Part shown: piece by piece, positions 33,049 to 50,120 of the stretch
Layout of the letters: each line of letters starts with the position of its first letter
Position numbering within the stretch: the first letter of the stretch is position 1
Assembly (NCBI RefSeq): GCF_003151075.1
Contig: NZ_CP029482.1
Location: 2,852,001 to 2,916,000, forward strand
Direction of reading: 5' to 3'
Length of the DNA: 64,000 bases
Source of the DNA: Pseudomonas sp. 31-12
GTDB taxonomy: Bacteria; Pseudomonadota; Gammaproteobacteria; Pseudomonadales; Pseudomonadaceae
Made by a program: the position numbers and the translations under genes
Notes under the pieces: model-generated
Seen by the model: only the letters and a program-made list of their open reading frames with translations
Database searches by the model: none
Told to the model about the DNA's origin: nothing

Positions 33049-33081
33049 GTGATGGATGCACGACAAGGACTTTGCCTGTTC

Positions 33082-35001: not shown

Positions 35002-35007
35002 CCCGGT

Positions 35008-35036
35008 CTGTCATCAACGCGTCATCACATTTTCAT
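35008..35036 (+). promoter_or_regulatory. Triple Pho-box-like repeat before exbB
   Basis: CTGTCAT (35008), GCGTCAT (35019) and TTTTCAT (35030) repeat at an exact 11-bp period. The first two match the PhoB consensus at 14 of 18 positions. They lie 62 bp before exbB and would allow the energy-transducing genes to be induced by phosphate starvation, independently of the receptor promoter. Confidence 0.6.
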
Positions 35037-35097
35037 CGAATAGCTCAACGGCCGTCGCGCATCGGCGGCCCGAGAGCATCAGACAAGGAGTTTCACC

Positions 35098-35799
35098 ATG
35101 CAGGCCACACTCGAACACATGACGATCTGGGGGCAGATCAGCGACGCCAGCCTGTTGGTCAAGGCGGTCATGCTCACCCTGTTGCTGGCCTCGTTACTCA
35201 GTTGGTACCTGATCATGCAGCGCAGCCTCGTGCTGCAACAGCGCGAACGGCAGATGAATGCGTTTGTGAAGCGCTTTCGCAGCAGCTCGGATCTGCTGCC
35301 GCTGTACCGGGACACTACTGACAGCGAGAACGGCGTCGAGCCGATATTTCACGCCGGGCTTCACGAGTTCAACCATCTTCATCAGCACACGGGCAATGCC
35401 GCCGACGTGGTGCTCGAAGGTGTGGAACGCGCGCTGTACGTCGCCATCAGCGAGCAGGAAGTGCAGCTGGAGAAAGGCTTGCAGTTTCTCGCGACCGTGG
35501 GTTCGGTCAGCCCTTACATCGGTTTGTTTGGCACGGTTTGGGGAATCATGAATTCGTTTCTCGGCTTGTCTCAGGTACAGCAAGCGACGCTGTCGACCGT
35601 GGCCCCGGGCATCGCCGAAGCGCTGATCGCCACGGCCATCGGCCTTTTTGCGGCGATTCCGGCGGTGATTGCCTACAACCGCTTTTCCTCGCGCAGCCAG
35701 ACCTTGCTCACCCGTTACTACGCCTTCGGCAATGAGCTTCAAGTGCGCCTGCATCGCACGTTGCATGGCAAGCCGTTGAACCTGGCCGCCGCAGCCTGA
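35098..35799 (+). CDS. exbB: ExbB/TolQ-type proton channel protein
   Basis: 233 residues with three membrane helices: about 22-42, then two near the C-terminal half framed by FLATVGSVSPYIGLFGTVWGIM and APGIAEALIATAIGLFAAIPAVIAYN. These are the signature segments of MotA/TolQ/ExbB. GCAAGGAG lies before ATG 35098. The order of exbB, exbD and tonB next to the receptor and phytase shows a dedicated energisation complex in the inner membrane. TolQ is less likely because no tolR-tolA-tolB-pal genes follow. Confidence 0.88.
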   Translation: MQATLEHMTIWGQISDASLLVKAVMLTLLLASLLSWYLIMQRSLVLQQRERQMNAFVKRFRSSSDLLPLYRDTTDSENGVEPIFHAGLHEFNHLHQHTGNAADVVLEGVERALYVAISEQEVQLEKGLQFLATVGSVSPYIGLFGTVWGIMNSFLGLSQVQQATLSTVAPGIAEALIATAIGLFAAIPAVIAYNRFSSRSQTLLTRYYAFGNELQVRLHRTLHGKPLNLAAAA

Positions 35800-35812
35800 G
35801 AGGAGAATGAAG

Positions 35813-36259
35813 ATGCTGGTCAGACCGCAACGCAAGCACGGGCCCAAGGCCGAAATGAACGTGGTGCCCTACATCGATGTGATGCTGGTGCTGCTGGTGA
35901 TTTTCATGGTCACCGCACCGATGCTCACCCAGGGCGTGAAGATCGAATTGCCCAAGGTCGCCAGTGAAGCGTTGGCCACCGATACCCGCCAGCAAATCCT
36001 TACCCTGTCGGTGAAGGCCGAGGGCAGCTACTACTGGAACCTCGGCGGAGAACTGGATACGCAGCACCAGACCGACAGTGCGGTGGGGCTCGATGAGATG
36101 CGGGCCAAGGTCGCGCAAATCGTTGCCGAGCGTCATGACACTCAGGTTTACATTCGCGCCGACAAGGACGCCGGTTACGGCAGCGTGGTCGCGGCCATGG
36201 CGGCACTGCAACAGGGCGGGGTCAGCAACCTCGGGCTGGTGACCGAGGCTGCGCAATGA
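35813..36259 (+). CDS. exbD: ExbD/TolR-type transport protein
   Basis: 148 residues. One membrane helix near the N terminus contains the essential Asp (MNVVPYIDVMLVLLVIFMVTAPML), followed by a periplasmic domain ending RADKDAGYGSVVAAMAALQQGG. ATG 35813 is 7 bp from AGGAG; the ATG at 35807 is only 1 bp away. Overlaps tonB by 4 bp. Confidence 0.88.
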   Translation: MLVRPQRKHGPKAEMNVVPYIDVMLVLLVIFMVTAPMLTQGVKIELPKVASEALATDTRQQILTLSVKAEGSYYWNLGGELDTQHQTDSAVGLDEMRAKVAQIVAERHDTQVYIRADKDAGYGSVVAAMAALQQGGVSNLGLVTEAAQ

Positions 36260-37062
36260 CGGCGATGATCATGCACGACTCCACCATGACGTTGCCGCGC
36301 AGTGCTCCCGGCGGGTTCTGGCAGAACAGTCTGGCGGCGGGCCTGGCCGTGGCGCTGCACGTCATCGTTCTGGCGTTGTTGGTACACGGCTGGTCGCTGG
36401 AGAAAACACCAGTCAGTCAGCCGGCAGTTTTGAAAACCCAATTGGTGATGTTGCCGCCGGAACCTCAGGTGCAGGCTCCCGAACGGGCACCCGCAATCGA
36501 GCAGCCAGCACCTCCTGAGCCCGTTGCAGCCGCACCCGTCGAGCCGATCAAACCTGCTGTCGATCCACAACTCCAGGCTCAAAAACGCGAACAGGCGGCT
36601 TTGGCGCGAAAACGGGTCGAAGATAAAAAACTCGAGCAGCAAGCCGAGCAGCAACGCGAGCGACTGGAGACGCAACGACGTGACCGGGAGACCCAGCAGC
36701 GGCAACTCGCCCAGCAGCAAGAACAACGTGCCGAGCAGGCCAGACTGGCTGCCGAACGCTCGCGCCGACCAGCCGCACAGAACGCTGCCGACATTCGTCA
36801 GTATTTACCTCTGAGCAAGGAAGCACCGGACTATCCGCAGCGGGCTCTGGACAAGAACATAGAGGGCGATTGCTCGGTGGAATACACCGTCAACCCACAA
36901 GGCAAAGTCGAGAATCCCAGGGTGCTTGATGGTTGCCATCCGCTGTTCATTCGACCATCGCTGGCAGCCGCTAACACCTTCCGTTACCAACCGCGAGTCG
37001 TCGACGGCCAAGCCGTTGCGGTGCCGGCTGTGCGCAATACGTTCCATTACCGGATCAAATAA
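36256..37062 (+). CDS. tonB: TonB energy transducer
   Basis: 268 residues. A membrane anchor (about 22-44) is followed by a Pro/Ala-rich segment and a long Gln/Arg/Glu helix (about 95-170; repeated QQ and ER steps). The C-terminal TonB domain reads YPQRALDKNIEGDCSVEYTV and continues NPRVLDGCHPLFIRP. It links ExbBD in the inner membrane to the receptor's TonB box. ATGA overlap with exbD. The long coiled Gln/Arg stretch is more TolA-like than the short Pro-rich spacer of canonical TonB. Confidence 0.88.
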   Translation: MTAMIMHDSTMTLPRSAPGGFWQNSLAAGLAVALHVIVLALLVHGWSLEKTPVSQPAVLKTQLVMLPPEPQVQAPERAPAIEQPAPPEPVAAAPVEPIKPAVDPQLQAQKREQAALARKRVEDKKLEQQAEQQRERLETQRRDRETQQRQLAQQQEQRAEQARLAAERSRRPAAQNAADIRQYLPLSKEAPDYPQRALDKNIEGDCSVEYTVNPQGKVENPRVLDGCHPLFIRPSLAAANTFRYQPRVVDGQAVAVPAVRNTFHYRIK

Positions 37063-37082
37063 GTGCCCAGCCCTCAAATCAT

Positions 37083-37979
37083 TCACTTTGCTCGGGTCTG
37101 CTCGATGGTTTCGACAAATGCCTTGACCAGCGGGCTGCGTTCGCGTTTGCGCGTCAATATCAGCAAGGGTGCGGTGGCCCCGGGTTCAGCCAGGGGCCGA
37201 TAGGTCACGCCGCGCTTGACCAGGGTCTGGGTGCATTGGGGCACCACGGCGACGCCACGGCCTGCGGCGACCAGGGCGATGATGGAGGTGATCTGCTTGC
37301 CCTTCGGCGCGGGCAGGGGGATCAGCGCCTGGCGCCGATATAGCGCCTCGATGATCTCGTTCAACCCGGAACCGTAGTCGGTCGGGAAGGCGATCAACGG
37401 GTAGGCGCTCAAATCGGCGAGTGTCACCTGTTCTTTCCGGGTGAGCGGGCTGTCACTGGCAATGGCCGCGACCAGCGGCTCGTTGTCCAGGCAGATGGCT
37501 TGAATCTCGGCATCGTCGGCGGGCGGCTGCATACGGCTCATGCCGATATCCAGACGTCCCTCGATGAGCTGCGACCATTGGGTGCTGGACGCGCCTTCTT
37601 CCACCGTCAGTTGCACATCCGGGTACGCCGAGCAGAAGGTCTGAATGGTCTGGCTGAAAATGTCCGACAGCGCAATCGAACTGGCGTAGCCCACCGCGAG
37701 ATGACCCGCGGACCCCGCCGCCAGCTTGCTGGTAATGCTCGCCGTCAGATCGACTTGCTCCAGCACCGCCCGGGCGTAGGGCAGAAAGTGCCGGCCCTCG
37801 GAGGTGAGCCTGACATTGCGGGTGCTGCGATCGAACAGGCGAAAACCCAGATCCGCCTCCAGTGCCGAAATCTGCCGCGTCAGCGGCGGTTGGGCAATGT
37901 GCAGGCGTGCCGCGGCACGGCCAAAGTGCAGCTCGTCGCTGACGAGCAGGAAGTAGCGCAGGCGGCGGAGGTCAATCAT
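37083..37979 (-). CDS. LysR-family regulator of the adjacent cluster
   Basis: 298 residues starting MIDLRRLRYFLLVSDELHF; this start is favoured because AAGG lies 6 bp upstream, while the earlier ATG at 37985 has none in range. The N-terminal winged helix (FGRAAARLHIAQPPLTRQISALE) precedes a substrate-binding-like effector domain. It is divergent from the MFS exporter gene with 107 bp between, the usual position of a LysR activator for a target operon. Effector unknown. Confidence 0.88.
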   Translation of the reverse strand: MIDLRRLRYFLLVSDELHFGRAAARLHIAQPPLTRQISALEADLGFRLFDRSTRNVRLTSEGRHFLPYARAVLEQVDLTASITSKLAAGSAGHLAVGYASSIALSDIFSQTIQTFCSAYPDVQLTVEEGASSTQWSQLIEGRLDIGMSRMQPPADDAEIQAICLDNEPLVAAIASDSPLTRKEQVTLADLSAYPLIAFPTDYGSGLNEIIEALYRRQALIPLPAPKGKQITSIIALVAAGRGVAVVPQCTQTLVKRGVTYRPLAEPGATAPLLILTRKRERSPLVKAFVETIEQTRAK

Positions 37980-38086
37980 CGTCATCCTTGAGGTATCAAT
38001 CGGTCAGAAATAGGTATTGGATCCTTTCGACGGTCTATCTTATAAAATTGTAAAAATACATTACAGATAATCCAGGGAATCGTCGC

Positions 38087-39262
38087 GTGAGTTGTCCTCG
38101 AGTTGCCTTGTTTCTGGCTGGGTGCGCCGCTTTTATCAACCTTTATGCCACACAAGGGCTGCTCAACGAGTTGGCTGCGGCGTTTCACATTTCCGCCAGG
38201 CAAGCGAGCTGGAGCATCACCGTCACCACCCTGGCCGTGGCAATCACCGCTCCCTTTGTCGGCCGGTTGACGGCGCGGGGCGAGCAGCACCGGGTCATCG
38301 CCGTGGCCGCGATATTGCTGGCACTGCCTGCGGTGATGGCGGCCTGCTCGGGCAGTTTCAGCGAGCTGCTGCTCTGGCGAGCGGTGCAAGGCATGCTGAT
38401 CCCGGTGGTGTTTGCCACCAGCGTCGCCTACATCGGCGTGCGCTGGAGCGGCGAGTCAGTGACGGAAATGACCAGCCTCTATGTCGCGGGCACGGTTCTG
38501 GGCGGCTTTAGCGGGCGCTTTTTGTCCGGCCTGGTGACCGAGTTCGATGATTGGCGCCTGGCGTTGGCAGTGCTGGCCGGCTTGAATCTGATCATCGGTC
38601 TGGGGATTTTCCTGCTGTTGCCGCGCAATCTTCGGTCACCCGTACAAACGCCTGCCGATCGCAAGGCGATGCGCAGCGAATTGCTAAGCAGGCCGTTGCT
38701 GGCCACCTACGCCGTGGGTTTCTGCGTGCTGTTCGCCCAAGTCGCAATGTTTACCTATGTCGGCTTACACCTGAGCCGGGCGCCGTTTGCGCTGGGCACC
38801 GCTGCGCTTGGTTCGATTTATGCGGTGTTCCTGCTGGCACTGGTGGTGGTGCCGATCGCCGGGCGCATGAGCAAGGCCCGCCCTCGCAGTGAATGGGTGA
38901 GGGTGGCGGCATGGCTGGGCGTCAGCGGCTCGGTGCTGACCCTGTGGCCATCGTTGTGGCTGATCGTTGCCGGTCTGGCGCTCAGTTGCACCGGCGTGTT
39001 TCTCGCCCAGTCCGCGGCCAATGCCTTTATCACCGCTCATGCCCGGCAAAACAAGGCCGGCGCCGTGGGCGTGTATCTGACCTGCTACTACCTGGGCGGC
39101 AGCTTCGGCGCGTTTGTGCCTGGCGTGCTGTGGGAGCAATGGGGCTGGCCTGGCTGTATCGCGTTGATCGCGGTTTTCCAGTTGCTGCCGCTGCTGATCG
39201 TGCGCAGTGGCTGGAAGTATTCCCCATTGCCATCAATGCCGCTCCCGCGCCCGCGCCCGTGA
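38087..39262 (+). CDS. MFS transporter, possible exporter of the cluster
   Basis: 391 residues with 12 predicted helices. GTG 38087 follows AGGGA. The N-terminal half carries the motif-A-like GRLTARGEQHRV loop after TM2 and FSGRFLSGLVTEFDDWRLAL near TM5, resembling the YnfM/multidrug efflux class rather than sugar uptake. The C-terminal half has a second GRMSKARPR loop. First gene of the putative biosynthetic operon, so export or self-resistance is inferred. Confidence 0.85.
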   Translation: MSCPRVALFLAGCAAFINLYATQGLLNELAAAFHISARQASWSITVTTLAVAITAPFVGRLTARGEQHRVIAVAAILLALPAVMAACSGSFSELLLWRAVQGMLIPVVFATSVAYIGVRWSGESVTEMTSLYVAGTVLGGFSGRFLSGLVTEFDDWRLALAVLAGLNLIIGLGIFLLLPRNLRSPVQTPADRKAMRSELLSRPLLATYAVGFCVLFAQVAMFTYVGLHLSRAPFALGTAALGSIYAVFLLALVVVPIAGRMSKARPRSEWVRVAAWLGVSGSVLTLWPSLWLIVAGLALSCTGVFLAQSAANAFITAHARQNKAGAVGVYLTCYYLGGSFGAFVPGVLWEQWGWPGCIALIAVFQLLPLLIVRSGWKYSPLPSMPLPRPRP

Positions 39263-39299
39263 ATGTGCCTGAAATCATCATCCAACAAGGAAAAAAGAG

Positions 39300-40130
39300 A
39301 TGACCGTGAGTAACCTGCTGACGCTGCAAAGCCAGTTGTTGAACGTGATAGAACCGGTGCTGGAGCTGATGCCGGCCGGGGTTTTGAAGCAAGCGTTGGT
39401 GGATGCGTTTCGCAGCCAGGAATCGGAATTGCTGGACATCGAAAGTACGTTTCAGACGCTCACCTCACGCCGCCATGCGGCGCCGCAGTTGCGCAAGTTC
39501 TTTGGCAGTTGGTCGAAAACCAACAACTCGGCGGCCAGTGTGTCCGGCCTGGCCAACCGCATCACGCTGCTGGCGCGTTCCGAGCAGTGGGGCGAAGCGG
39601 CGCAACGGCTCTACCGAATCTGCGGCAACCTGCAACGGATCACCGACGAGGACCTCGGCGCACTGAGCAACACGCTGCATTCCGAACTTTTTTACAACAT
39701 GGCAACGCGGATCTGCGGTGACGATCAGTGGCTGCTGACAGGCAATTGCCTGCCATCGGCGCAGGCCTTCAAGGACTGGACGGACGCGCAACGCCTGCGT
39801 GACCGCGACCTGTTGCAGGGGCTGTTGGTCACCCTGGTTCACGAGGTCTACACCCACGGTGAAGTGGAGTTCATTCATCCGCTGTTCAAGCAATGGTTCG
39901 AACGTGACATGGGCGTGCCGCCCGCGAAGGTACGGGCCACCGTTGCCTGGGTCACCGTGCACACCGGCGGCACCGAAAGCAATCACTTCGCCCACGCGGT
40001 GGCAGCGGTCGAGGAGTTCGTCGATGTCATGGGCATCGTGGTGGTCAAGTTCGCCGCCCAGGAAATCTTCGGCCAATACCTGCAGCGCAAGGCTGCGGTG
40101 ATGCGTGAGTGCGGCCAATACCTGGGCTGA
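39300..40130 (+). CDS. Candidate heme-oxygenase-like (HDO) oxygenase
   Basis: 276 residues, all-helical in appearance. Potential metal ligands cluster as in heme-oxygenase-like di-iron enzymes: His127/Glu129 (LHSELFY), His181-Glu182-x3-His186-x-Glu188-x-Glu190-x2-His193 (HEVYTHGEVEFIHPLF), and His221/Glu226/His229/His232 (HTGGTESNHFAHA). The family is recognised only by this pattern; another helical fold is possible. AAGGAAAAAAGAG precedes ATG 39300. It is second in the operon, 37 bp after the exporter. If correct, it could carry out an oxidative step such as desaturation, C-C cleavage or N-oxygenation on an amino acid. Confidence 0.5.
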   Translation: MTVSNLLTLQSQLLNVIEPVLELMPAGVLKQALVDAFRSQESELLDIESTFQTLTSRRHAAPQLRKFFGSWSKTNNSAASVSGLANRITLLARSEQWGEAAQRLYRICGNLQRITDEDLGALSNTLHSELFYNMATRICGDDQWLLTGNCLPSAQAFKDWTDAQRLRDRDLLQGLLVTLVHEVYTHGEVEFIHPLFKQWFERDMGVPPAKVRATVAWVTVHTGGTESNHFAHAVAAVEEFVDVMGIVVVKFAAQEIFGQYLQRKAAVMRECGQYLG

Positions 40131-40296
40131 CAGACCACGATCTGACCAGCGCTTGGGAAAGTATCAATAACGACGGCATCGGTATTGGCCTGTCCTTCAG
40201 GTTTTTATCAAGATACTGAGGCTCCGGATCCGGCGTGGATGTGATGTGCCTGAAGTTGGAGATTTACAAACTATGGAAGATTGCAAGGAAAGCCGC

Positions 40297-41538
40297 ATGC
40301 AGCTCATTGTTTTTTGCCCGCCGAAAATTCTTTTCCAGCACTCTGCCGCGAGCTGGTCTGCCGCGCTTGGCCAGGGGGGCATGCTGTTGAGCTGTGCCTC
40401 GCGATCTCAAGAGATTGCGGCGCATCTGGGCCATACCGTCCACTTTCAGCTCTTCGACAACTTTAACGACAGCGCGCTGGTCGAGATCGATGTCTATGAG
40501 CTTGCACGGGAGCTCCATGCGCCGCTGTGTGTGGCGCTGGCCGAGATCGATGTGCTGCGGGTGGCGCGCATCAATGATCGGCTCGGGATTACGGTGGGTG
40601 CCGAGGATCGCGCCTCGTTTTACCGGGACAAGTTCCTGATGAAACAACGCACCAGGGACTGCGGGTTTGCCATCGCCGAAATGGCATTGATCAGCAATGC
40701 CACGCAAGCGGTTCGCTTCAGCGAGCGCTTCGGTTTCCCGGTGGTCATCAAGCCTTGCGATGGCCGCGGCTCGAACGGCGTGGAGGTGCTCGACGATGCG
40801 CAGCAGCTGCGCGAATGGCTGGCCGGGCGCACTTCAAGCACGTTCCACAACCTGATGATCGAAAGCTATGTACGTGGCCGCCATTACATCGTCAATGGCC
40901 TGTACATCGATGGCCGCCCGATCCTGGTTTCACCGGTTCGGGTCATGACCTCGGCGCTGGATTTCCTCGGCGGCAAATCACATGACCTGCACATGCTCGA
41001 CGCCGAGAACCCGATGCGCGACAGGCTGGTTCGCTATGCGCGTTCGCTGGTTGAAGAGGTGCTGCCATCTGATCCGACCATGCTGTTTCATCTCGAACTT
41101 TTCGTGGATGGAAATGACGAGATCGTCCTCTGCGAAATCGCCTCGCGGTTGGGTGGGGTGTTCTTCAATCAGGAGCTGACCCACGCCTGGGGCATTGATC
41201 CGCGGATGAGCTTCCTGCGCGCGCTGCATGATCCGTTCTACCGTCCTGAGCCAATGGCCGCGCCGCTGCGGATGGTCGGGCATATCAGCATCCCGCCACG
41301 GGTCGGTCTGCTGCGCGACGTTCCGCAAACCTGCCCGCTCGACGGTGTCCTGGAGTACCGGATTTCCGCCAGGAAGATGACTTCCTATGGCGGCATGGAA
41401 TTCACCAACTCGGAAATCCTCAACGCCATCGTGGCAGGTCGGGATGAGGCCGAGTTGCGCGACAAGCTGCATCAGGTCGAGGCCTGGTTCCACGAGAGTT
41501 GCGACTGGTCGGACAGCGAAATCGCCGCCGCGATATAG
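40297..41538 (+). CDS. ATP-grasp ligase
   Basis: 413 residues from ATG 40297 (AAGGAAA upstream). The ATP-grasp core shows KFLMKQRTRDCGF, the P-loop-like lid FPVVIKPCDGRGSNGVEVL, and the metal-binding strand pair LFHLELFV...VLCEIASRLGGVFFN. These place it with carboxylate-amine ligases such as L-amino-acid ligases and carbamoyl-phosphate-type enzymes. It activates a carboxylate as acyl phosphate and joins it to an amine. In this context it may form an amide or dipeptide of a non-standard amino acid. The 166-bp gap before it has no visible promoter or terminator. Confidence 0.82.
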   Translation: MQLIVFCPPKILFQHSAASWSAALGQGGMLLSCASRSQEIAAHLGHTVHFQLFDNFNDSALVEIDVYELARELHAPLCVALAEIDVLRVARINDRLGITVGAEDRASFYRDKFLMKQRTRDCGFAIAEMALISNATQAVRFSERFGFPVVIKPCDGRGSNGVEVLDDAQQLREWLAGRTSSTFHNLMIESYVRGRHYIVNGLYIDGRPILVSPVRVMTSALDFLGGKSHDLHMLDAENPMRDRLVRYARSLVEEVLPSDPTMLFHLELFVDGNDEIVLCEIASRLGGVFFNQELTHAWGIDPRMSFLRALHDPFYRPEPMAAPLRMVGHISIPPRVGLLRDVPQTCPLDGVLEYRISARKMTSYGGMEFTNSEILNAIVAGRDEAELRDKLHQVEAWFHESCDWSDSEIAAAI

Positions 41539-41625
41539 ACCCTGCCGTACTCTCATTCGACATTAATCGAGCTGACCTCCCTGGGCTGGACGGACTCGTC
41601 ACGCCTGCAGAAAAGTGGATATCCA

Positions 41626-42654
41626 ATGAAGACAGTGTTTGAAAGCCTTATCCCGATTCCCGTGGCGGCCCTGGGCGCATGGCTCGGTTACCTGACCGGG
41701 CTTCCACTGGGTGAGCTGATCGGCGCGATCTGCCTGGTCACGGCGCTCAGTAAAATGGGCGTGCGCATGCGCATGCCGTATCCGTTCGTGGCCACCGTGC
41801 AGTTGCTGCTCGGGGTCAGTGTCGGCTCCATCGTCACCGCCTCGATGATGCATGAGCTGACGGACTTCAGCATTCTGGTCGGTCTGCTCATCTGCATGAC
41901 CACGCAGGTTTTCGTCGGCTACAACTGGCTACGGCGCATGGAGCGCTGGGGGCATATAGAAAGCCTGCTCGGGTCGATTCCCGGCGCAATGGCGGCGGTG
42001 ATGACCGTCTCGGGAGAGGAGGGCCCGGCCTCCGGGCGCATCGCGTTCGTGCACATTGTCCGCTTGCTCGCGCTGTTGCTGGTGGTGACGATCATTGCCG
42101 GTGGGCACGCCGAAAGCGCGGCGCCGGTACTGGGCACGCTTGATAATTACCTTGGCGTGATCCCTCCGGCGATCGCGGCGGTGGTGGCCGGTTATCTGCT
42201 GGAGCGCTTCGATGTTCCCGCGCCTTACATGTTGACCGGGCTAGTTTGCAGCGCGGCGGTCAACGTCGGTTTTCCTCAAGTCCATCTGCATGTTCCCGAT
42301 CCGCTGGCGATCGTTGCGCTGATCCTGCTCGGCGGCCTGATCGGCATTCGCCTCAAGGACATCACGTTTAAGGATTTCGTGCGTTACATCCGCGCCGGGC
42401 TGGTGGTTACTGCCCTGACGTTCTGCACGACACTGCTGGTCGCCTTCGCGTTCAGCAAGCTGACTGGCAAGCCGTTTCTTTCGCTGTTCATGTCGTGGGT
42501 TCCGGGCGGTGTCGAGGTGATGACCGCAGCGGCTTTGCTGCTCAAGCTCGATCCTGCCTTTGTGATGCTCAATCACGTGGTGCGGATGTCGATCATCCAT
42601 ATTTCGCCGGCGTTCCTGCCCAAACGGCTGCTGCAGGAAAAACCCTCAGCCTGA
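41626..42654 (+). CDS. AbrB-type (Gneg_AbrB_dup) membrane protein
   Basis: 342 residues with about ten hydrophobic helices in two related halves (GAWLGYLTGLPLGELIGAI near the N terminus and VVAGYLLERFDVPAPYMLTG in the middle). This corresponds to the family of E. coli AbrB, often misannotated as ammonia monooxygenase; it is not an oxygenase. The family looks like a permease. Lying inside the operon, it may move a precursor or product across the membrane, alongside the MFS protein. Confidence 0.8.
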   Translation: MKTVFESLIPIPVAALGAWLGYLTGLPLGELIGAICLVTALSKMGVRMRMPYPFVATVQLLLGVSVGSIVTASMMHELTDFSILVGLLICMTTQVFVGYNWLRRMERWGHIESLLGSIPGAMAAVMTVSGEEGPASGRIAFVHIVRLLALLLVVTIIAGGHAESAAPVLGTLDNYLGVIPPAIAAVVAGYLLERFDVPAPYMLTGLVCSAAVNVGFPQVHLHVPDPLAIVALILLGGLIGIRLKDITFKDFVRYIRAGLVVTALTFCTTLLVAFAFSKLTGKPFLSLFMSWVPGGVEVMTAAALLLKLDPAFVMLNHVVRMSIIHISPAFLPKRLLQEKPSA

Positions 42655-42699
42655 ACGTAATGGCTGCAAAAAACTTCGAATGACAAGGACTTGATCTCG

Positions 42700-43707
42700 A
42701 TGAGTATTGCAATTCACGACCCAACGCTGCGCGACGGAAATCATGCTGTCTCCCATACGCTGAGCCTGCAGGACATTGCCGCCTACTGCCGCGCGGTCGA
42801 TGGCTGCGGCCTCAGCGTTGTAGAAGTCGGCCACGGAAATGGCCTGGGTGCGTCCTCCCTGCAACTCGGACTTGCGCGCTACAAAGACAGCGAGATGCTC
42901 GAAACGGCGCGAGCCAACCTGACGCATTCCAGGCTCGGCATCCACATGATTCCCGGGTTTGCCAGGCTGAGCGATATTGATACCGCACTGCAGATCGGCG
43001 TCGACGTACTGCGCATCGCGTCCCATTGCACCGAGGCCAGCCTGACCGAGAGCTACATTGAGCATGCGCGGTCCAAGGGCGCGTACGTCCAGGGCGTGCT
43101 GATGATGACTCACATGGCCAGCCCCGAAACGTTGCTCGAAGAAGCATTGAAGCAGCAGGGCTATGGCGCCAATGCCCTGGTTCTGATGGATTCGGCGGGG
43201 CACTTTGACCCGGACAGCACCCGCGAAAAAATCGGCCTGCTGGTCAGGGAGCTTGCTATTCCCGTGGGCTTCCATGGCCACAACAATCTTGGATTGGCGG
43301 TCGCCAACTCGCTGGCAGCCGCCCAGGCCGGGGCGACCATCATTGATGGCTGCATGCGCGGATTTGGCGCGGGTGCCGGCAATACCCAGCTGGAGGTGCT
43401 GTGCGCGGTGCTTGAACGCTACAAATTCGAGACCGGGGTGAAGGTTTTTGACCTTTGCCGCGCCGTCGAGAGCCTTGAGGACTCAGCTCCGGTCAGGACT
43501 CCCACGGTGGTGAAGACTGCCAATCTGATCAGCGGCCTCTACGGCGTTTGCAGCGGGTTCGAGAAGCACGTCGCGCGCGCGGCGGCGGAATTTCACGTCG
43601 AGCCGCGAAAAATCTATGAAGAGCTTGCGCGATGCAACGCAGTGGCCGGCCAGGAAGACCTGATCATCTCGGTGGCCAGCCGCCTTTCACAACCCGTCGT
43701 CGCCTGA
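42700..43707 (+). CDS. 4-hydroxy-2-oxoacid (hydroxyoxovalerate-type) aldolase
   Basis: 335 residues of the DRE-TIM metallolyase family. The DPTLRDGNHAVSH motif supplies Arg11, Asp12 (metal) and His15 (base); FHGHNNLG supplies His192 and His194 (metal); Tyr281 (GLYGVCSGFEKH) matches the catalytic Tyr of DmpG/BphI. The reaction joins or splits pyruvate and a short aldehyde. Length is slightly below the usual 345. It is paired with an acylating aldehyde dehydrogenase, as in meta-cleavage pathways, but no hydratase, hydrolase or ring dioxygenase genes accompany it. Confidence 0.85.
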   Translation: MSIAIHDPTLRDGNHAVSHTLSLQDIAAYCRAVDGCGLSVVEVGHGNGLGASSLQLGLARYKDSEMLETARANLTHSRLGIHMIPGFARLSDIDTALQIGVDVLRIASHCTEASLTESYIEHARSKGAYVQGVLMMTHMASPETLLEEALKQQGYGANALVLMDSAGHFDPDSTREKIGLLVRELAIPVGFHGHNNLGLAVANSLAAAQAGATIIDGCMRGFGAGAGNTQLEVLCAVLERYKFETGVKVFDLCRAVESLEDSAPVRTPTVVKTANLISGLYGVCSGFEKHVARAAAEFHVEPRKIYEELARCNAVAGQEDLIISVASRLSQPVVA

Positions 43708-43725
43708 CTCTGGAGCTGAAAAAAA

Positions 43726-44604
43726 ATGACTTTGAAAACCGCCATCATCGGCAGTGGCAATATCGGCTGCGACATCCTGTGCAAGGTGCTGGCCCATCCG
43801 AATCTGGATTGCACGCTGGTTGCCGGTCGCTCCTTGCACTCATCAGGCCTTGCGTTTGCCCGTGAGCGCGGGGTCGCCACCACCGCGGACGGCATCGACG
43901 GCCTGTTTGCCCGGATCAACGAATTTGATCTGGTGTTCGATGCCACCTCGGCTGCCGACCATGAAGCCCACGCACCGCGCCTGATCGAGGCCGGGAAAGC
44001 GATCATCAACCTGACCCCGGCCTCTCTGGGCGCGTTGTGCGTGCCGTCCCTCAACGGCGAGGAGCTGACCGAGGCGAGCAATATCAACATGATCACCTGT
44101 GGTGGCCAGGCTTCCATCCCGCTTGCGGCCGCGATCGCCCGGGCTAATCCGGGCGTGCGCTACATCGAAGTGGTGTCATCGATCAGCGCCGAAAGCGCCG
44201 GCCCGGCCACTCGGCGAAACCTGAGCAACTACATCACTACCACCGAGCATGCGCTGAGCCATTTCACCGGCTGCAAGGACGTCAAGGCGATCCTCAACAT
44301 CAATCCGGCCAAGCCGAATGTCTTTATGCAGACCGCGGTTTCGGCGCTGATCGAGACGGTGGATCTGGCCGCCACCCGTCGTGAAGTGGAACGTGCCGTG
44401 GCCCAGGTGCAGTCTGCCGTGCCTGGGTATCAGGTCATCGTCGATTTGCATTACAGCGAGGGCCGCTTGTTCACCATGGTGCGCGTTGAAGGGGCAGGGG
44501 ACTTTCTCGATCCAAGCGCCGGCAACCTCGACATCATCACGGCGACCGCCACTCACATGGCCGCGCTTATGGCCCGAGCCCGCGTGACCGAACGCGCAGC
44601 CTGA
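43726..44604 (+). CDS. Acylating (CoA-dependent) aldehyde dehydrogenase, DmpF/MhpF-like
   Basis: 292 residues, shorter than the usual 310-316. The Rossmann motif IIGSGNIGCDI opens the protein, and the catalytic Cys125 lies in CGGQASIP, which is CGGQATIP in DmpF/MhpF. It interconverts acetaldehyde (or propionaldehyde) with acyl-CoA using NAD. It follows the aldolase by 18 bp; in known systems the two proteins form a channelling complex. Here the context favours running in reverse, from acyl-CoA toward the aldehyde, but this is an inference. Confidence 0.87.
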   Translation: MTLKTAIIGSGNIGCDILCKVLAHPNLDCTLVAGRSLHSSGLAFARERGVATTADGIDGLFARINEFDLVFDATSAADHEAHAPRLIEAGKAIINLTPASLGALCVPSLNGEELTEASNINMITCGGQASIPLAAAIARANPGVRYIEVVSSISAESAGPATRRNLSNYITTTEHALSHFTGCKDVKAILNINPAKPNVFMQTAVSALIETVDLAATRREVERAVAQVQSAVPGYQVIVDLHYSEGRLFTMVRVEGAGDFLDPSAGNLDIITATATHMAALMARARVTERAA

Positions 44605-44627
44605 CTCAGCGTCACGGAGCCACTTTT

Positions 44628-45815
44628 ATGCCTACTCTTTCGCCAGATCTCGAATTTGCACGGTTTTGCCCGATCCTGGGTGTCGTTCAGAAAGTCAGGG
44701 AAACCCTGCATCCAGTGATCGATCTCGGTGTCGGTGTGCCGGGTTTTCTTCCGGCGCCGCACATCGTCGAAGCGGCCGTCAAAGCTGCCTGCGAACACAC
44801 CGGCGGTTATGGCTCAAGCCGCGGAGATGAAGCGCTGCTGGCGGCGTATCTGGGTTACCTGCATGGACAGGGGTTCACGCACTATCGCGAGCAGAATCTG
44901 GTGGCCGGCCTCGGCGCCAAGCACCTGTTGTTCAGTGTGCTGCGCGCGATCATCCGCCCCGGCGACGAGATCCTCGTGTCCACCCCTTGCTGGCCGACCT
45001 ATTTCGACATTGCCGATCTGGTCGGAGCGGGCGTGGTCAACGTCACCTGCTCGGCGCAAACCGGTTTCAAGATGACGGCGCAAGCCCTTGAAGAAGCCTT
45101 GTCCGACAAGGTGCAGGTGGTGATGCTGAACTCGCCGGGCAACCCTACCGGCGCCGTGTATTGCGCCGAGGAACTCGCTGCGTTGGCACAGGTGCTGCGT
45201 AAAAAGGATGTCTGGATCATTTCGGATGACGTCTATCAGCGATTCGTCTACGACATGGATAGCTGCCCCAGTCTGCTGTCGGTCGCACCGGATCTGAGCG
45301 ACCGCATCATCAAGATCGACAGCGTATCCAAACTCTATGGAATGCCGGGCTGGCGCGTCGGGCTGTTGGCGGCCAATGAACGAATTGCCGCCGCAGTCAC
45401 CACGCTCAATTCCAACTCGATCTCCAATATCCCGCCGATCGCGGCGGCTGCGGCAGCGGCGGCCTTCAGCGGTGACCAGGCGTTCTCCTACGCCGCAAGA
45501 GACCGCTTGTACAGTCAGCGCCAGGCATTGCTCGCCGACTTGCAGGGGGCGCCACACCTGAGGTTCTGCGAACCAGCGGGGGCGTTTTATCTGTTCATGG
45601 ATATCAGCCAGGTCCTGGGCAAATCCCTGCACGGCAGGTTGATCGCCGATGACGAGGCATTTTGCGCCTTGCTGCTGGAGGAATACGGCGTCGCGCTGAT
45701 TCCCGGCAGCTTTTTTGGCGCACCGGGTCATGCGCGATTGTCGTACTCCAGCGATGTCGAGCAGGTCAGGTCCGGGGCCGCGCGCTTGAGAGAGTTCCTG
45801 TCTGCCGTTTCGTGA
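44628..45815 (+). CDS. Class I/II PLP aminotransferase
   Basis: 395 residues of fold type I. SPGNPTG, the cofactor-binding Asp200 (IISDDVYQ) and the Schiff-base lysine Lys235 in DSVSKLYGMPGWRVG are all visible. The Tyr/Arg residues that fit small hydroxylated or aliphatic 2-oxo acids cannot be judged from sequence alone. It follows the aldehyde dehydrogenase by 23 bp. It could aminate the 4-hydroxy-2-oxoacid made by the aldolase to a gamma-hydroxy-alpha-amino acid. Confidence 0.88.
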   Translation: MPTLSPDLEFARFCPILGVVQKVRETLHPVIDLGVGVPGFLPAPHIVEAAVKAACEHTGGYGSSRGDEALLAAYLGYLHGQGFTHYREQNLVAGLGAKHLLFSVLRAIIRPGDEILVSTPCWPTYFDIADLVGAGVVNVTCSAQTGFKMTAQALEEALSDKVQVVMLNSPGNPTGAVYCAEELAALAQVLRKKDVWIISDDVYQRFVYDMDSCPSLLSVAPDLSDRIIKIDSVSKLYGMPGWRVGLLAANERIAAAVTTLNSNSISNIPPIAAAAAAAAFSGDQAFSYAARDRLYSQRQALLADLQGAPHLRFCEPAGAFYLFMDISQVLGKSLHGRLIADDEAFCALLLEEYGVALIPGSFFGAPGHARLSYSSDVEQVRSGAARLREFLSAVS

Positions 45816-45945
45816 TTACCGGTCTGGCAGGGGCGAGGTCTGGCGACGTTGAAGTGTCCTGGAACGGGGGGGGCTGGCTGCGCCACGTCTGCTGCCGGGA
45901 GGAAACACACGTAAGGGAAGCGGTTCACTATAAGGAAATACCTTG

Positions 45946-47469
45946 ATGAAAAATGCCTTTGCAATCGTAGGCTGCGGCGCGACGGCTATCGCATTCCTGC
46001 AACGTCACCTGGATCGCGTCGCGGCATGCAACGCACCGGCCGGGACCATTTACCTCTTCGAAAAACGCGAAGACTTCGGGCGCGGCGCGGCATATGAGGC
46101 TGATTTGCAGAGCAACATCCTCAATACCAAGACAGGTTTCATTACGCCCTATCCGCATCTCCTTGGTCATTTCCAGCGTTGGTTAGAGGACCATCCCGGG
46201 GCGTGGCGGCATGCCTTTCCCGAGTTTTGTCCGACCCCGGAGAGCTTTGCTCCGCGGGCCTTGTTCGGCGTTTATTTGCAGCACCAGATCAAGAAGATCG
46301 TATTGCGTGGCGCCTCGCTCGGCTGCCAATTGGTGCTGATGAATGCCGAGGTCTGCGCTATCGATCTGATTGACGGAATGGAGACCGTGCGGACGCAATG
46401 CGGGCTGAGTATCGCCACGCACAAGGTCTTGCTGTTCTGCGGGCCGTTGGCCAAGAAAATTGATCCGGACCAGCACGACGAGCGCGTCCTGGCGACACCC
46501 TATCCGGTTGCGCGCCTGCTCAAAACAATCTCCCCGGACGAGCGGGTGGCCGTCATCGGTGCGCGGTTGAGCGCCATTGACACGGTGATCGCGCTGATCG
46601 AGGGCGGGCATCGCGAGTTGATTCGCATGCATTCGCGTAGCGGCTATTTCCCCGTGGTTCGCGCAACCCAGGAGCGCGTCGAGCTCCAGCACCTGACCCG
46701 CGAGGGTGTTCGCGCGCTGGTCGCGCAAAACGGGCCTTTGCAGATTAGTGATCTGGTCGCACTGTTTCGCAAGGAACTGGCCGCCCACGACCCGGCCTCG
46801 GCGAGTGCCGTGATCCCTCTGCCAGCACCGCCGGCTGACGTCATCAGCTTCATCGAAAACGAGATCAATGCCTCGCAAGCACCGCGTATCTGGCAGGCCA
46901 TCCTCTATGCAACCAACGGCTTCATCGAACACCTTTGGCAGGCGCTGGACGACACTGCACAAGCCAGGTTCATGAAAGAGTATTTCAGCTTCTTCATGGC
47001 TTACCGCGTCTCCATCCCGGCGGAAAACGCGCGCAAGATCCTCGGTTACCTGCGAAGCGGCCAGCTGGAGTTCATCCCCGGTGCGTTTACCGCACCCGAG
47101 CCAGTTGATGTGCCGGGACTGAGCATTCGGGTGGCGGGCTGTGAGCATGTCTATGATCGGGTGATCTACGCAACGGGCTTTCCTCGAGATGCGAACCTCA
47201 TTGAGTCGACCTTGCTGAGCTCGCTGATCAACAACGGCACGGCCACCTGTCATCCTATGGGGGGCATCTGCGTCGACCCGGATACCTACCGCATTCAGGG
47301 CCGGACGGGCTCGGCGCGGCAGATTTATGCGGTTGGCGAGCTGACCGTGGGACAGTTCTTCTTCACCTCTGCGCTGGAAATCAACGGGCGACACGCCTTC
47401 TGTTGCGCGGACGCGCTGCAATGGCGCGAAGAAACGCACAGGGTTGAGCGCGTGGAAGAGCATGTCTGA
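45946..47469 (+). CDS. FAD/NAD(P)-binding protein (NAD_binding_9-like)
   Basis: 507 residues from ATG 45946, with AAGGAAA upstream. The N-terminal dinucleotide motif FAIVGCGATAIAF is followed by RGAAYEADLQSNILNTKTGF, a pattern of the FAD-NAD(P)-binding (NAD_binding_9/HpyO-like) proteins. A second pyridine nucleotide site (VAVIGARLSAIDTVIAL) and a C-terminal GELTVGQFF segment are visible. Possible role is an oxidase, monooxygenase or dehydrogenase in the cluster. It is 130 bp after the aminotransferase and probably the last gene of the operon. Confidence 0.8.
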   Translation: MKNAFAIVGCGATAIAFLQRHLDRVAACNAPAGTIYLFEKREDFGRGAAYEADLQSNILNTKTGFITPYPHLLGHFQRWLEDHPGAWRHAFPEFCPTPESFAPRALFGVYLQHQIKKIVLRGASLGCQLVLMNAEVCAIDLIDGMETVRTQCGLSIATHKVLLFCGPLAKKIDPDQHDERVLATPYPVARLLKTISPDERVAVIGARLSAIDTVIALIEGGHRELIRMHSRSGYFPVVRATQERVELQHLTREGVRALVAQNGPLQISDLVALFRKELAAHDPASASAVIPLPAPPADVISFIENEINASQAPRIWQAILYATNGFIEHLWQALDDTAQARFMKEYFSFFMAYRVSIPAENARKILGYLRSGQLEFIPGAFTAPEPVDVPGLSIRVAGCEHVYDRVIYATGFPRDANLIESTLLSSLINNGTATCHPMGGICVDPDTYRIQGRTGSARQIYAVGELTVGQFFFTSALEINGRHAFCCADALQWREETHRVERVEEHV

Positions 47470-47683
47470 AAATCAGCGGCGCGGCAGTGGTGAGTGGCCT
47501 GACATTCCGAACGTCTGCCTCTACACACTGGCGGACAGTTATCGAGAGTGGGCAAAGACCTATTTGAAGTCAGAACACGATGAGAATCGAGTTTGAAACA
47601 GGTGAAATGAAGCGTCATGAAAAAGACAACCCTGGCCTTCAGTCGCGTCTCACCCAGCCAGGCATTTACTCAAGTATGGCTTT

Positions 47684-48601
47684 TCACGCAGGGCGGCGAG
47701 TTCGGCTGGTATCCCTGGATGGCGGACACCCGAATTGACGACTGTATTCTCGGCTGAATTGCGATGGGCTTTCGTAGCCCACTCGATAACATGCACTCGC
47801 CACATCCAGCCCTTCGCCGAGCATCAGACGGCGGGCTTCCTGCAGACGGAGTTGCTTCTGATACTGCAGCGGACTCATGGCCGTCACTGCCTTGAAGCGG
47901 TGATGCAAAGTAGAGCTGCCCAAATTGGCTACCCGGGCAAGCTCTTCGATGCGTAATGGTTGGGTGTAGTGGTTATTCAACCAATCGATTGCTCGCGTCA
48001 CCCGCCGCGTTTGCGAATCACCGAGGGCCAGCTCATACAGACGGCGGCCGTGTACACCTCGTACGAGGCGATAATACAGTTCCCGCAAGGCAAGCGGCGC
48101 CAGCATGCCGATGTCCCGTGGCGTCTCTAGCAATCGCACCAGCCGAAGCATTGTTTCCAGCAGGGGAACATCGACTTTTTCAAGGAAAAGACCAAGTTCC
48201 GGTTCGTCCGGGACTCCCGTCGGAGGAGCATCGGCGATGACCTGAGCGATGTCCGTAGCCTCGAAATCAAAACGGATACACAGATAGGGCGCCTCGGGGC
48301 TGGCCACCAGCACACGACCAGAAACCGGAAGTGTCACCGATACCACCAGGTAACTGAGTGGGTCGTACAGGTAACGGTCGTCACCCAGGCCGATTTCCTT
48401 TTGCCCTTGCACGATCAGGCAAAGTGCCGGCTTGTGAACGGTATGGATAAGCTCGGAGGGAGTGTCAAAACGAATGACATGCAGAGGCGCTATGGCGGTC
48501 TCATAGAGACCCGGCGCCGGAAACCGTTGTGTCAGTAGACGGACCAGTTCGTCGCGGTAAATGGCTGTGTTTTGAAGGATGAAAGCATCGCTTTGTTCCA
48601 T
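47684..48601 (-). CDS. AraC-family regulator (AraC_N cupin type)
   Basis: 305 residues starting MEQSDAFILQNTAIY. The N-terminal cupin-like AraC_N region (LHVIRFDTPSELIHTVHKPALC) precedes two helix-turn-helix motifs (IEELARVANLGSSTLHHRFKAVT and ACYRVGYESPSQFSREYSRQFG). This architecture is common in regulators of nearby oxidoreductases. The neighbouring Atu4866-like and SDR genes on the same strand lie upstream. The terminus is convergent with the FAD gene. Confidence 0.87.
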   Translation of the reverse strand: MEQSDAFILQNTAIYRDELVRLLTQRFPAPGLYETAIAPLHVIRFDTPSELIHTVHKPALCLIVQGQKEIGLGDDRYLYDPLSYLVVSVTLPVSGRVLVASPEAPYLCIRFDFEATDIAQVIADAPPTGVPDEPELGLFLEKVDVPLLETMLRLVRLLETPRDIGMLAPLALRELYYRLVRGVHGRRLYELALGDSQTRRVTRAIDWLNNHYTQPLRIEELARVANLGSSTLHHRFKAVTAMSPLQYQKQLRLQEARRLMLGEGLDVASACYRVGYESPSQFSREYSRQFGCPPSRDTSRTRRPA

Positions 48602-48682
48602 TTCAAAGCTCTCACAAATGTTTAATAGGGCCTGCCTGGGGCTGTCCAGGCAGACGGCATACACCCGACATCATCAAATCGC

Positions 48683-48940
48683 TCATTGCCGAAAAAGAAC
48701 CATGCCGGCGTGATACAGCACATCGTCCTGAAAATACCCATCGGCGGTGAAGCCGCTATCGTCCCAGTACTGGATGTAGTTGCCCACCATTTCGTAGCGG
48801 CCTTGATAGGCGCTCCTGTTTTTACCACGGGCCTCATCGTAACGCCCAGTCTCCAGAAGCTCGTGACGGATGAACCCATCAGCAGTGACCCACATGCCTG
48901 CGTAACGATGATCGTGAACGGCGTCTTTGGCATTTTTCAT
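48683..48940 (-). CDS. Atu4866-domain protein
   Basis: 85 residues, with GAGGAGAG before ATG 48940. The WVTADGFIRHELL, GRYDEARG and YQGRYEMVGNYIQYWDDSGFTADG segments match the small Atu4866 domain (a lipocalin-like beta-barrel) found beside SDR and AraC genes. Function unknown; a ligand-binding or isomerase-like role is possible. It sits between the SDR gene (upstream) and the AraC gene (downstream). Confidence 0.75.
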   Translation of the reverse strand: MKNAKDAVHDHRYAGMWVTADGFIRHELLETGRYDEARGKNRSAYQGRYEMVGNYIQYWDDSGFTADGYFQDDVLYHAGMVLFRQ

Positions 48941-49125
48941 AAGGTGCTCTCCTCGATTCATTGACGTTGCTCAGCTGAGGGGCCTGCCGTGGCCTGTTTC
49001 TGCATCCGTTGCGTGTTTTCAGATTACGTAGCTGAGTGGAGCGGCGTTAGATCGAAACTGTCGCAGATTTGCCTGATCCTCTCGGGATCGCCGGCAATGC
49101 CTGGCAGGTTCATTGCTGCGGCTGT

Positions 49126-49890
49126 TCACCCGGCAGTCACGGTCATGCCGCCGTCGGCCATGACCACCGAGCCGACCAGGAAACTGGCCCGATCCGAGGC
49201 GACGAAGGCGACCACTTCAGCGATTTCCTCCGGTTGTGCTGCGCGGCCGATGGGGGCGGCTTCACCGTGTCTGGCAAGAAATGCAGGGCCATCGTCGACC
49301 ACCTCGTTGAGGATATTGGTCACCACATCCCCCACGCCGATGGCATTGACACGGATGCCGTGGGCAATGACCTCGAGCGCCAGGGTGCGCGTCAGTTGGG
49401 CAAGCGCACCTTTGGAGGCGGTGTAGGCTGAAATGGTAGGGAAAGCGAAATACGATGCGTAGGACGCGATGTTGACAATCGAACCGGATTGATTAGGGAT
49501 CATCGCTTTGACCGCTTCGCGACTATGCAGGAATGCCGCCGTGGCATTGACCGCTTGAATGCGCTCCCAATCTTCACGGGTCATGTCGATGACCAGTTTG
49601 TTGATGATGATGCCGGCGTTATTGACCAGGATGTCCAGCCGACCGAATTGTTCGACAGCCAATGCGACCGCGCGCTCCGCGGCGCCGTCCTGAGTGATGT
49701 CGGCTACCAGGGGGACGAGGCCCGGGCGAGCCAGCGTCTCCACCTCGGGGTTCATATCTTCGGCGATGACCTTCGCCCCGCGGGCGTGCAGCAAAAGCGC
49801 GATCGCCTTGCCGATGCCACTGGCCGCGCCAGTTACCAGAGCGACTTTGCCTGCTACTTCGTTTGGCGTGCTGTTGTTGATATCGGTCAT
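49126..49890 (-). CDS. Short-chain dehydrogenase/reductase
   Basis: 254 residues. The cofactor motif TGAASGIG (about 20-27), NNAGI, and catalytic Ser/Tyr/Lys (NIASYASYFAFPTISAYTASKGAL) are present, with a C-terminal SVVMADGGMTVTAG typical of the FabG-like classical subgroup. Substrate unknown. It is divergent from the AraC gene at 50121 and upstream of the Atu4866-like gene. Confidence 0.88.
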   Translation of the reverse strand: MTDINNSTPNEVAGKVALVTGAASGIGKAIALLLHARGAKVIAEDMNPEVETLARPGLVPLVADITQDGAAERAVALAVEQFGRLDILVNNAGIIINKLVIDMTREDWERIQAVNATAAFLHSREAVKAMIPNQSGSIVNIASYASYFAFPTISAYTASKGALAQLTRTLALEVIAHGIRVNAIGVGDVVTNILNEVVDDGPAFLARHGEAAPIGRAAQPEEIAEVVAFVASDRASFLVGSVVMADGGMTVTAG

Positions 49891-50120
49891 GATGTTCTCC
49901 AGCGTTGTGATCCAGTAAGGGTGTGCCGTTCCTGCGCCTGCAAGGCGCTGTCATCGGCGACAGGTGTACTTTCACGCAACGAGGGGAAGCCGGCTTTCGC
50001 GGGTTTGCCGAAGCTGTCGGAGTTTTGCGCTGAATGTAATTGGGCAAGGCTTGGCGCTCTGTTCAATGAGCGGGAGAAGCGCACCTGGCTTTGCGTAACC
50101 GAGTTGAAAAGGACATGTTC

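Follow-up and report, generated by a model that had tools for sequence, protein, structure and literature searches.

A biosynthetic-looking Pseudomonas gene cluster with a conserved six-gene core and an apparently exchangeable exporter-oxygenase pair

Introduction

Nikkomycin biosynthesis employs an acylating dehydrogenase (NikA), an aldolase (NikB), an aminotransferase (NikK) and an ATP-grasp enzyme (NikS), which reduce an acyl-coenzyme A (acyl-CoA) to an aldehyde, extend it by aldol addition with a 2-oxoacid, transaminate the adduct and form an amide. Here we describe a gene cluster with what appears to be the same four-enzyme logic at positions 37083..47469 of a 64,000-nucleotide stretch of Pseudomonas sp. 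31-12 (NZ_CP029482.1, positions 2,852,001-2,916,000), the whole of which is called the window below. The likeness is one of pathway logic; Streptomyces ATP-grasp proteins labelled NikS match the window ATP-grasp at 27-28%. The window cluster differs in lacking nucleoside, picolinate and cytochrome P450 genes, and in having extra genes for an FzmM-like flavin adenine dinucleotide (FAD) enzyme, an AbrB-type membrane protein and a haem-oxygenase-like oxidase/oxygenase (HDO). We give slightly better than an even chance to the reading that it makes a small, secreted, N-oxygenated compound containing a gamma-hydroxy-amino acid, probably a short peptide or amide. The preliminary description of this DNA matched the combination to no known Pseudomonas pathway, which holds in our literature searches, although outside the genus the nikkomycin logic is similar.

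The aldolase and dehydrogenase share both enzyme families, the communication domain and the catalytic motifs with the pairs DmpFG, BphIJ and MhpEF, but are 37-42% identical to them and have no hydratase at their side. Likewise, the FAD enzyme has the helical domain between two dinucleotide domains that is seen in FzmM of fosfazinomycin biosynthesis, but at 19% identity, with Thr for Arg13, and in a shorter protein (507 versus about 600 residues). The nearest described Pseudomonas case of an HDO with an ATP-grasp enzyme that we found is mangotoxin (mboABCDEF), in which an HDO is paired with ATP-grasp amino-acid ligase chemistry; mangotoxin (PMC13185094) is made from proteinogenic building blocks, and its cluster has two ligases beside an arginine deiminase and a redox partner, whereas the window cluster has one ligase, an amino acid that would itself be built, and a flavin N-hydroxylase-like enzyme. 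That paper refers to a supplementary figure with at least 25 clusters of the HDO plus ATP-grasp type, and the present cluster, of which our literature searches found no description among the papers listed, may be one of them. Fluopsin C, considered for its HDOs FlcE and FlcD, was set aside as a product, its lyase and methyltransferase genes (PMC11363339, as far as accessible) being absent here. Furanomycin of P. fluorescens SBW25 was also set aside: the accessible part of PMC3662646 names no biosynthetic genes and cites a polyketide origin (Streptomyces).

Results

Gene layout and a conserved six-gene core

All nine open reading frames (ORFs) were confirmed at the coordinates listed here: a LysR gene on the minus strand, then eight co-directional genes on the plus strand, among them genes for a major facilitator superfamily (MFS) protein and a pyridoxal phosphate (PLP) enzyme.

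37083..37985, minus strand: LysR-type regulator (PF03466/PF00126), divergent from the operon
38087..39262, plus strand: MFS exporter-like protein (PF07690), half of the apparently exchangeable MFS-HDO pair
39300..40130, plus strand: HDO; no Pfam family, fold from model
40297..41538, plus strand: ATP-grasp ligase (PF13535 above cut-off); ORF opens at 40246, likely ATG at 40297
41626..42654, plus strand: AbrB/TIGR03082-type membrane protein, putative transporter (PF05145, TIGR03082); core member
42700..43707, plus strand: 4-hydroxy-2-oxovalerate-type aldolase with DmpG communication domain (PF00682 + PF07836, TIGR03217); ORF opens at 42691
43726..44604, plus strand: acylating (CoA-dependent) aldehyde dehydrogenase, DmpF type (PF09290, TIGR03215 above cut-off)
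44628..45815, plus strand: class I/II aminotransferase-fold PLP enzyme (PF00155)
45946..47469, plus strand: FAD/NAD(P)H enzyme, FzmM-like N-hydroxylase fold; ORF opens at TTG 45943

With the likely ATG starts read from the sequence (40297, 42700 and 45946), the gaps between the eight plus-strand genes are 37, 166, 87, 45, 18, 23 and 130 bp, matching the 18-166 bp spacing first reported. The genes named in the title of the preliminary description are all present, while the AbrB-type gene had been left out of it; the coordinated ribosome sites that the description noted were found, as purine-rich stretches, before most starts, the AbrB site being weak (judged by eye). Expected Pfam domains occur in eight of the nine proteins, the exception being the HDO. 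The cluster stretch has a GC content of 0.608 against 0.595 for the window, and the ratio of nonsynonymous to synonymous substitution rates (dN/dS), computed against four relatives, is 0.04-0.23 for all nine genes. Together with recurrence in relatives, these ratios make the block more than a chance grouping. Promoter and terminator scans were uninformative on the cluster; the promoter scan returned one site where 3.0 were expected, and has no bearing on transcription units.

Six of these genes, encoding the ATP-grasp enzyme, AbrB-type protein, aldolase, acylating aldehyde dehydrogenase, aminotransferase and FAD enzyme, form a core that is complete in nine of 398 Pseudomonas genomes, and the nine genomes with a relative of the FAD enzyme at 72% or more, our own included, all hold it. 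When 194 genomes were searched at the protein level, four of them (again including our own) had the ATP-grasp at 76% or more, and three others had it at 40-45%. Among the 29 loci obtained from a scan of named genomes, eight are Pseudomonas loci with the six core genes in identical order, and LysR-MFS-HDO stands in front in seven; the eighth, L041, has LysR without MFS and HDO. A rearranged version in a Burkholderiaceae metagenome-assembled genome (L040) comprises ATP-grasps, the aldolase-dehydrogenase pair, the aminotransferase and an FAD enzyme at 29%; neither AbrB nor HDO was detected there. Eleven loci, nine from Pseudomonas, one from a Rhodobacteraceae bacterium and one from Agrobacterium rubi, hold the triad of ATP-grasp, FAD enzyme and AbrB alone, and the remaining nine hold more distant ATP-grasps, that of Photobacterium (L053) with an FAD enzyme at 36%. 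The neighbours of the triad-only loci (L042-L050, L052 and L058) vary.

Beyond these loci, three inspected Phaeobacter/Leisingera plasmids carry the ATP-grasp, FAD, AbrB, aldolase, dehydrogenase and aminotransferase genes together with a second ATP-grasp, in a rearranged order and with no HDO; among the matches listed, at least ten plasmid records have the ATP-grasp at 54-57% and at least ten the aldolase at 74-75%. The aldolase, dehydrogenase, aminotransferase and ATP-grasp are kept together across bacterial classes. The AbrB-family protein, the second membrane protein of the cluster, belongs to the core, and its gene lies beside those of the ATP-grasp and FAD enzymes in the 11 triad loci. 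LysR is present beside the core in both genomes that lack MFS-HDO (loci L023 and L118); in the genome counts it is G101 and G274 that combine core and LysR with no HDO match. The preliminary description proposed conserved synteny of all eight genes as a check; synteny is conserved for the core of six, whereas MFS and HDO are missing from two of the nine cores, and 21 of 28 HDO copies lie outside a complete core, which goes part of the way towards the separate operons in relatives that the description had named as refuting its view. Truncated clusters at L115 (genome G264) and L121 (G201) run LysR-MFS-HDO-ATP-grasp and then hold only a piece of AbrB.

The aldolase-dehydrogenase pair and its catabolic relatives

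The aldolase exceeds the TIGR03217 cut-off and matches 1nvm at E 9.1e-65. Its TLRDG.H and H-x-H motifs align with those of 1nvm, and the TCGGQA motif of the dehydrogenase aligns with that of 7z3s; we take all three to be catalytic motifs of DmpFG-type aldolase-dehydrogenases. Trees of both proteins compared 13 cluster rows with three catabolic rows (NAH7, bph and mhp), and four rows carried no label. In the aldolase tree the cluster copies make up a single fork (100/99), split from the catabolic copies at 100/100; the cluster dehydrogenases are also split from these at 100/100, with a weak fork of their own (82/67) and long-branch warnings. No hydratase or ring-cleavage gene occurs among the 17 proteins scanned (33049-51065), while the NAH7, bph and mhp pairs do have a hydratase beside them, and the genome itself has no second DmpG-type aldolase (other matches 27-31%). 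The preliminary description had called the cluster biosynthetic-looking, and had named a degradative match with a hydratase nearby as the finding that would speak against this. The separate aldolase fork, the lack of a hydratase in this interval and the linkage across classes all sustain its view, and the comparisons support a cluster that is biosynthetic rather than degradative. On two Streptomyces plasmids (L126 and L127), an acylating dehydrogenase and a DmpG-type aldolase lie beside a 3-ketoacyl-acyl carrier protein synthase (KAS III) and an acyl carrier protein, likely another biosynthetic use of the pair.

Ligase, aminotransferase-fold and flavin enzymes

A profile of the ATP-grasp family finds its best solved relative in 4wd3, an L-amino acid ligase (E 3.7e-19). 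The second ATP-grasp of Phaeobacter has a LAL_C2 domain. Homologues of the PLP enzyme occur at 73-95% in Pseudomonas/Paraburkholderia and at 50-51% in Phaeobacter/Leisingera. On a Pantoea agglomerans plasmid (L031), a ThiF-type adenylyltransferase, TauD-like dioxygenase, GNAT, CapA, ATP-grasp, PurD-like ligase, MFS and amidase lie in a row, which is another small ATP-grasp cluster.

FzmM (8cp2/8cp5) is the top match in the PDB for the FAD protein by both fold and sequence profile, and the protein is best modelled as FzmM-like, since it shows the same architecture of three parts and has the glycine motifs for FAD and NAD(P)H. According to the accessible part of PMC10404684, FzmM binds aspartate through a cluster of Arg13, Arg276, Arg416, Arg577 and Asn413, and its product is nitrosuccinate. 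FzmM Arg13 aligns with Thr13 of the window protein, the other ligand residues not being reliably alignable; because of this replacement we term the protein FzmM-like and not an aspartate N-hydroxylase. Its step is likely N-oxygenation, judging by model and profile. Oxidation had at first been assigned to the HDO and FAD proteins together; the FAD step is now respecified as this likely N-oxygenation, and the HDO, lacking in two cores, becomes optional.

The HDO and its association with the MFS gene

The HDO has no Pfam or NCBIfam match at E 0.001, and its family profile matches no PDB sequence up to E 1, the FlcD structures included. Its model (mean predicted local distance difference test score, pLDDT, 91.0) nevertheless has the HDO fold and matches UndA, CADD, HrmI, BesC and PolF among the families on the fold lists used. 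Of 22 aligned rows, 21 or all 22 have E117, H127, E182, E188, H221, E226 and H229; judged by this pattern, the candidate metal ligands are E117, H127, E182 or E188, H221, E226 and H229. Every exception comes from P0065 of Pseudomonas sp. NFXW11, a homologue at 53% that differs at six of 15 checked positions, has lost H127, E182, H221 and E226, and is probably degenerate, with metal binding lost.

Of the 398 Pseudomonas genomes, 28 carry the HDO, 27 of them at 67% or more and G367 at 34%, and the MFS gene adjoins it in all 28, with gaps of 31-101 bp. The FAD gene is no more than 6 kb away from seven of the pairs, and for 15 others a gene for phosphoenolpyruvate (PEP) mutase, a phosphonate gene, is found at a distance of 3.4-6.2 kb. 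Three further genomes (G403, G201 and G264) have a PEP mutase elsewhere, with a second HDO and without a second close MFS or HDO; the other ten HDO genomes gave no PEP mutase match at E 1e-40. The PEP mutase in four inspected loci has the EDK(X)5NS motif, presumably diagnostic of this enzyme, which reads EDKCGLKKNS in the putative phosphonate cluster of L112, L113 and L114. Three loci of this cluster hold LysR, MFS, HDO, a second MFS, an aminotransferase, a second HDO (27-32% versus the window HDO) and PEP mutase, and two of the three inspected also have a fumarase-type lyase. In G264 the PEP mutase cluster (L116, the fourth inspected locus) stands without LysR-MFS-HDO, which sits instead at the truncated ATP-grasp cluster L115, and at L117 LysR-MFS-HDO is kept with little else. 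On an HDO tree with four rows left unlabelled, two switches of label between "ATP-grasp cluster" and "PEP mutase cluster" are required, and a single switch suffices in 3% of 200 bootstrap trees; on this ground the MFS-HDO pair has probably moved between clusters. Which way it moved is left undecided by a root that depends on one very long branch. MFS and HDO thus appear to form an exchangeable finishing/export unit that the core chemistry could do without. A class-wide search found the HDO in two of 369 genomes, our own included, and a phage search with it gave no match.

Flanking genes

To the left of the cluster lie phytase, ExbB, ExbD and TonB genes, and to the right AraC, a small Atu4866-family protein, a short-chain dehydrogenase/reductase and a further AraC. 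The TonB gene (36256-37062) has a match in eight of 38 genomes, including its own, and three of the others are near full length. At a threshold of E 1e-8, the core of relatives was flanked by neither TonB nor the downstream AraC, indicating that the insertion site differs between genomes.

Discussion

From the gene content, synteny, modelled folds and selection observed, we infer a set of reactions, their order, their substrates and the direction of transport. The acylating aldehyde dehydrogenase would reduce an acyl-CoA, most likely acetyl-CoA, to an aldehyde that is channelled to the aldolase, which would add pyruvate (or 2-oxobutyrate) to give a 4-hydroxy-2-oxoacid, and the aminotransferase would convert this to a gamma-hydroxy-alpha-amino acid. 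In the simplest chain, for example, acetyl-CoA would yield acetaldehyde, addition of pyruvate 4-hydroxy-2-oxopentanoate, and transamination 4-hydroxynorvaline. The FzmM-like flavoenzyme would then oxygenate the amine of the gamma-hydroxy-amino acid, the ATP-grasp enzyme would attach it through an amide bond to an amine or a further amino acid, and the HDO, where MFS-HDO is present, would add an optional oxidation. The AbrB-type protein and, where present, the MFS protein would move the product, and LysR would sense a pathway intermediate. The route from acyl-CoA through aldehyde and 4-hydroxy-2-oxoacid to gamma-hydroxy-amino acid, as first proposed, stands as a conditional scheme in keeping with the enzyme families and the cross-class linkage.

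Several observations weigh against this reading. The aldolase and dehydrogenase reactions are reversible, and gene content does not fix their direction. The PLP enzyme resembles GntC, a gamma-hydroxyarginine cyclodehydratase, below cut-off (199 bits against 415), so that transamination is not certain, and the window ATP-grasp has no LAL_C2 match at E 0.001. The core is itself modular, since the ATP-grasp-FAD-AbrB triad exists without aldolase, dehydrogenase and aminotransferase in 11 loci; Roseobacter and triad FAD proteins, moreover, are only 23-26% identical to that of the window, and the FAD step may therefore differ between versions of the cluster. As for the MFS-HDO pair, it is missing from two of the nine cores, the MFS of G236 has a stop within the aligned stretch, and six of the 28 genomes with the pair lack both the FAD cluster and a PEP mutase close by, two of them having the truncated cluster (L115 and L121) and four no PEP mutase match at E 1e-40.

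It is possible, if doubtful, that LysR, MFS and HDO are an independent passenger unit that protects the cell from, senses or detoxifies a toxic compound of N-oxygenated or similar kind, and that landed beside a separate biosynthetic operon that runs from the ATP-grasp to the FAD gene. The constant adjacency of MFS and HDO (28 of 28), yet with seven pairs in the FAD cluster and 15 near PEP mutase, would suit such a unit, as would its loss from two cores, its retention in the truncated clusters L115 and L121 and almost by itself in L117, and the two label changes on the HDO tree. On the other hand, it is continuous with the core on the same strand in seven of nine cases, LysR remains with the core in both cases of MFS-HDO loss, and HDOs of known function are mostly biosynthetic (accessible part of the review PMC13108848). 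A further proposal, which we regard as unlikely, makes LysR-MFS-HDO a portable cassette that finishes N-oxygenated amino acids and has been swapped between two unrelated Pseudomonas biosynthetic clusters. The FzmM-like flavoenzyme would then oxygenate the amine of the gamma-hydroxy-amino acid in the core cluster, and in the phosphonate cluster (PEP mutase, aminotransferase, second HDO) the second HDO would do so for phosphonoalanine; the shared HDO would perform one and the same new oxidation on both N-oxygenated intermediates, LysR and MFS would recognise the functional group in common, and the phosphonate cluster of G201, G264 and G403 would be served by the cassette in trans. The accessible part of the paper on flavophos (PMC12871164), consulted for the phosphonate link, mentions neither an HDO nor an ATP-grasp.

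The remaining alternatives concern the core chemistry. A catabolic or salvage operon running in reverse, in which an imported gamma-hydroxy-amino acid or dipeptide is deaminated and split by the aldolase to pyruvate and an aldehyde that is oxidised to acyl-CoA, seems to us improbable. The aldolase and dehydrogenase families are familiar chiefly from meta-cleavage catabolism and have domains in common with DmpFG, and two transporters and a LysR regulator suit uptake. Yet such an operon has no hydratase among its 17 scanned neighbours, and it offers no obvious role to the ATP-grasp ligase, the N-hydroxylase-like enzyme or the HDO; the cluster copies are split from the catabolic ones in trees, the distribution is rare, patchy and partly plasmid-borne, and MFS-HDO is common to a PEP mutase cluster. 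We think it just as improbable that the FzmM-like enzyme releases a nitrogen species, at the nitroso/nitro or nitrite level, for an N-N bond or nitro group, with the gamma-hydroxy acid as carbon partner: FzmM is the closest relative in fold and sequence and makes nitrosuccinate (PMC10404684, accessible part), but its aspartate ligand Arg13 is Thr13 here, and by Pfam the cluster encodes neither a lyase nor a hydrazine-forming or diazotase-like enzyme.

If the favoured reading of a secreted, N-oxygenated gamma-hydroxy-amino-acid product is true, the cluster would represent a compact route from central metabolites to such a product, without a ribosome, nonribosomal peptide synthetase or polyketide synthase; its FzmM-like enzyme would act on a substrate other than aspartate, and its HDO would belong to a family without a Pfam entry. 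In this context, the MFS-HDO pair is common to two clusters, so that one assay of the HDO would inform both, and the pair may be used as a handle for finding further clusters.

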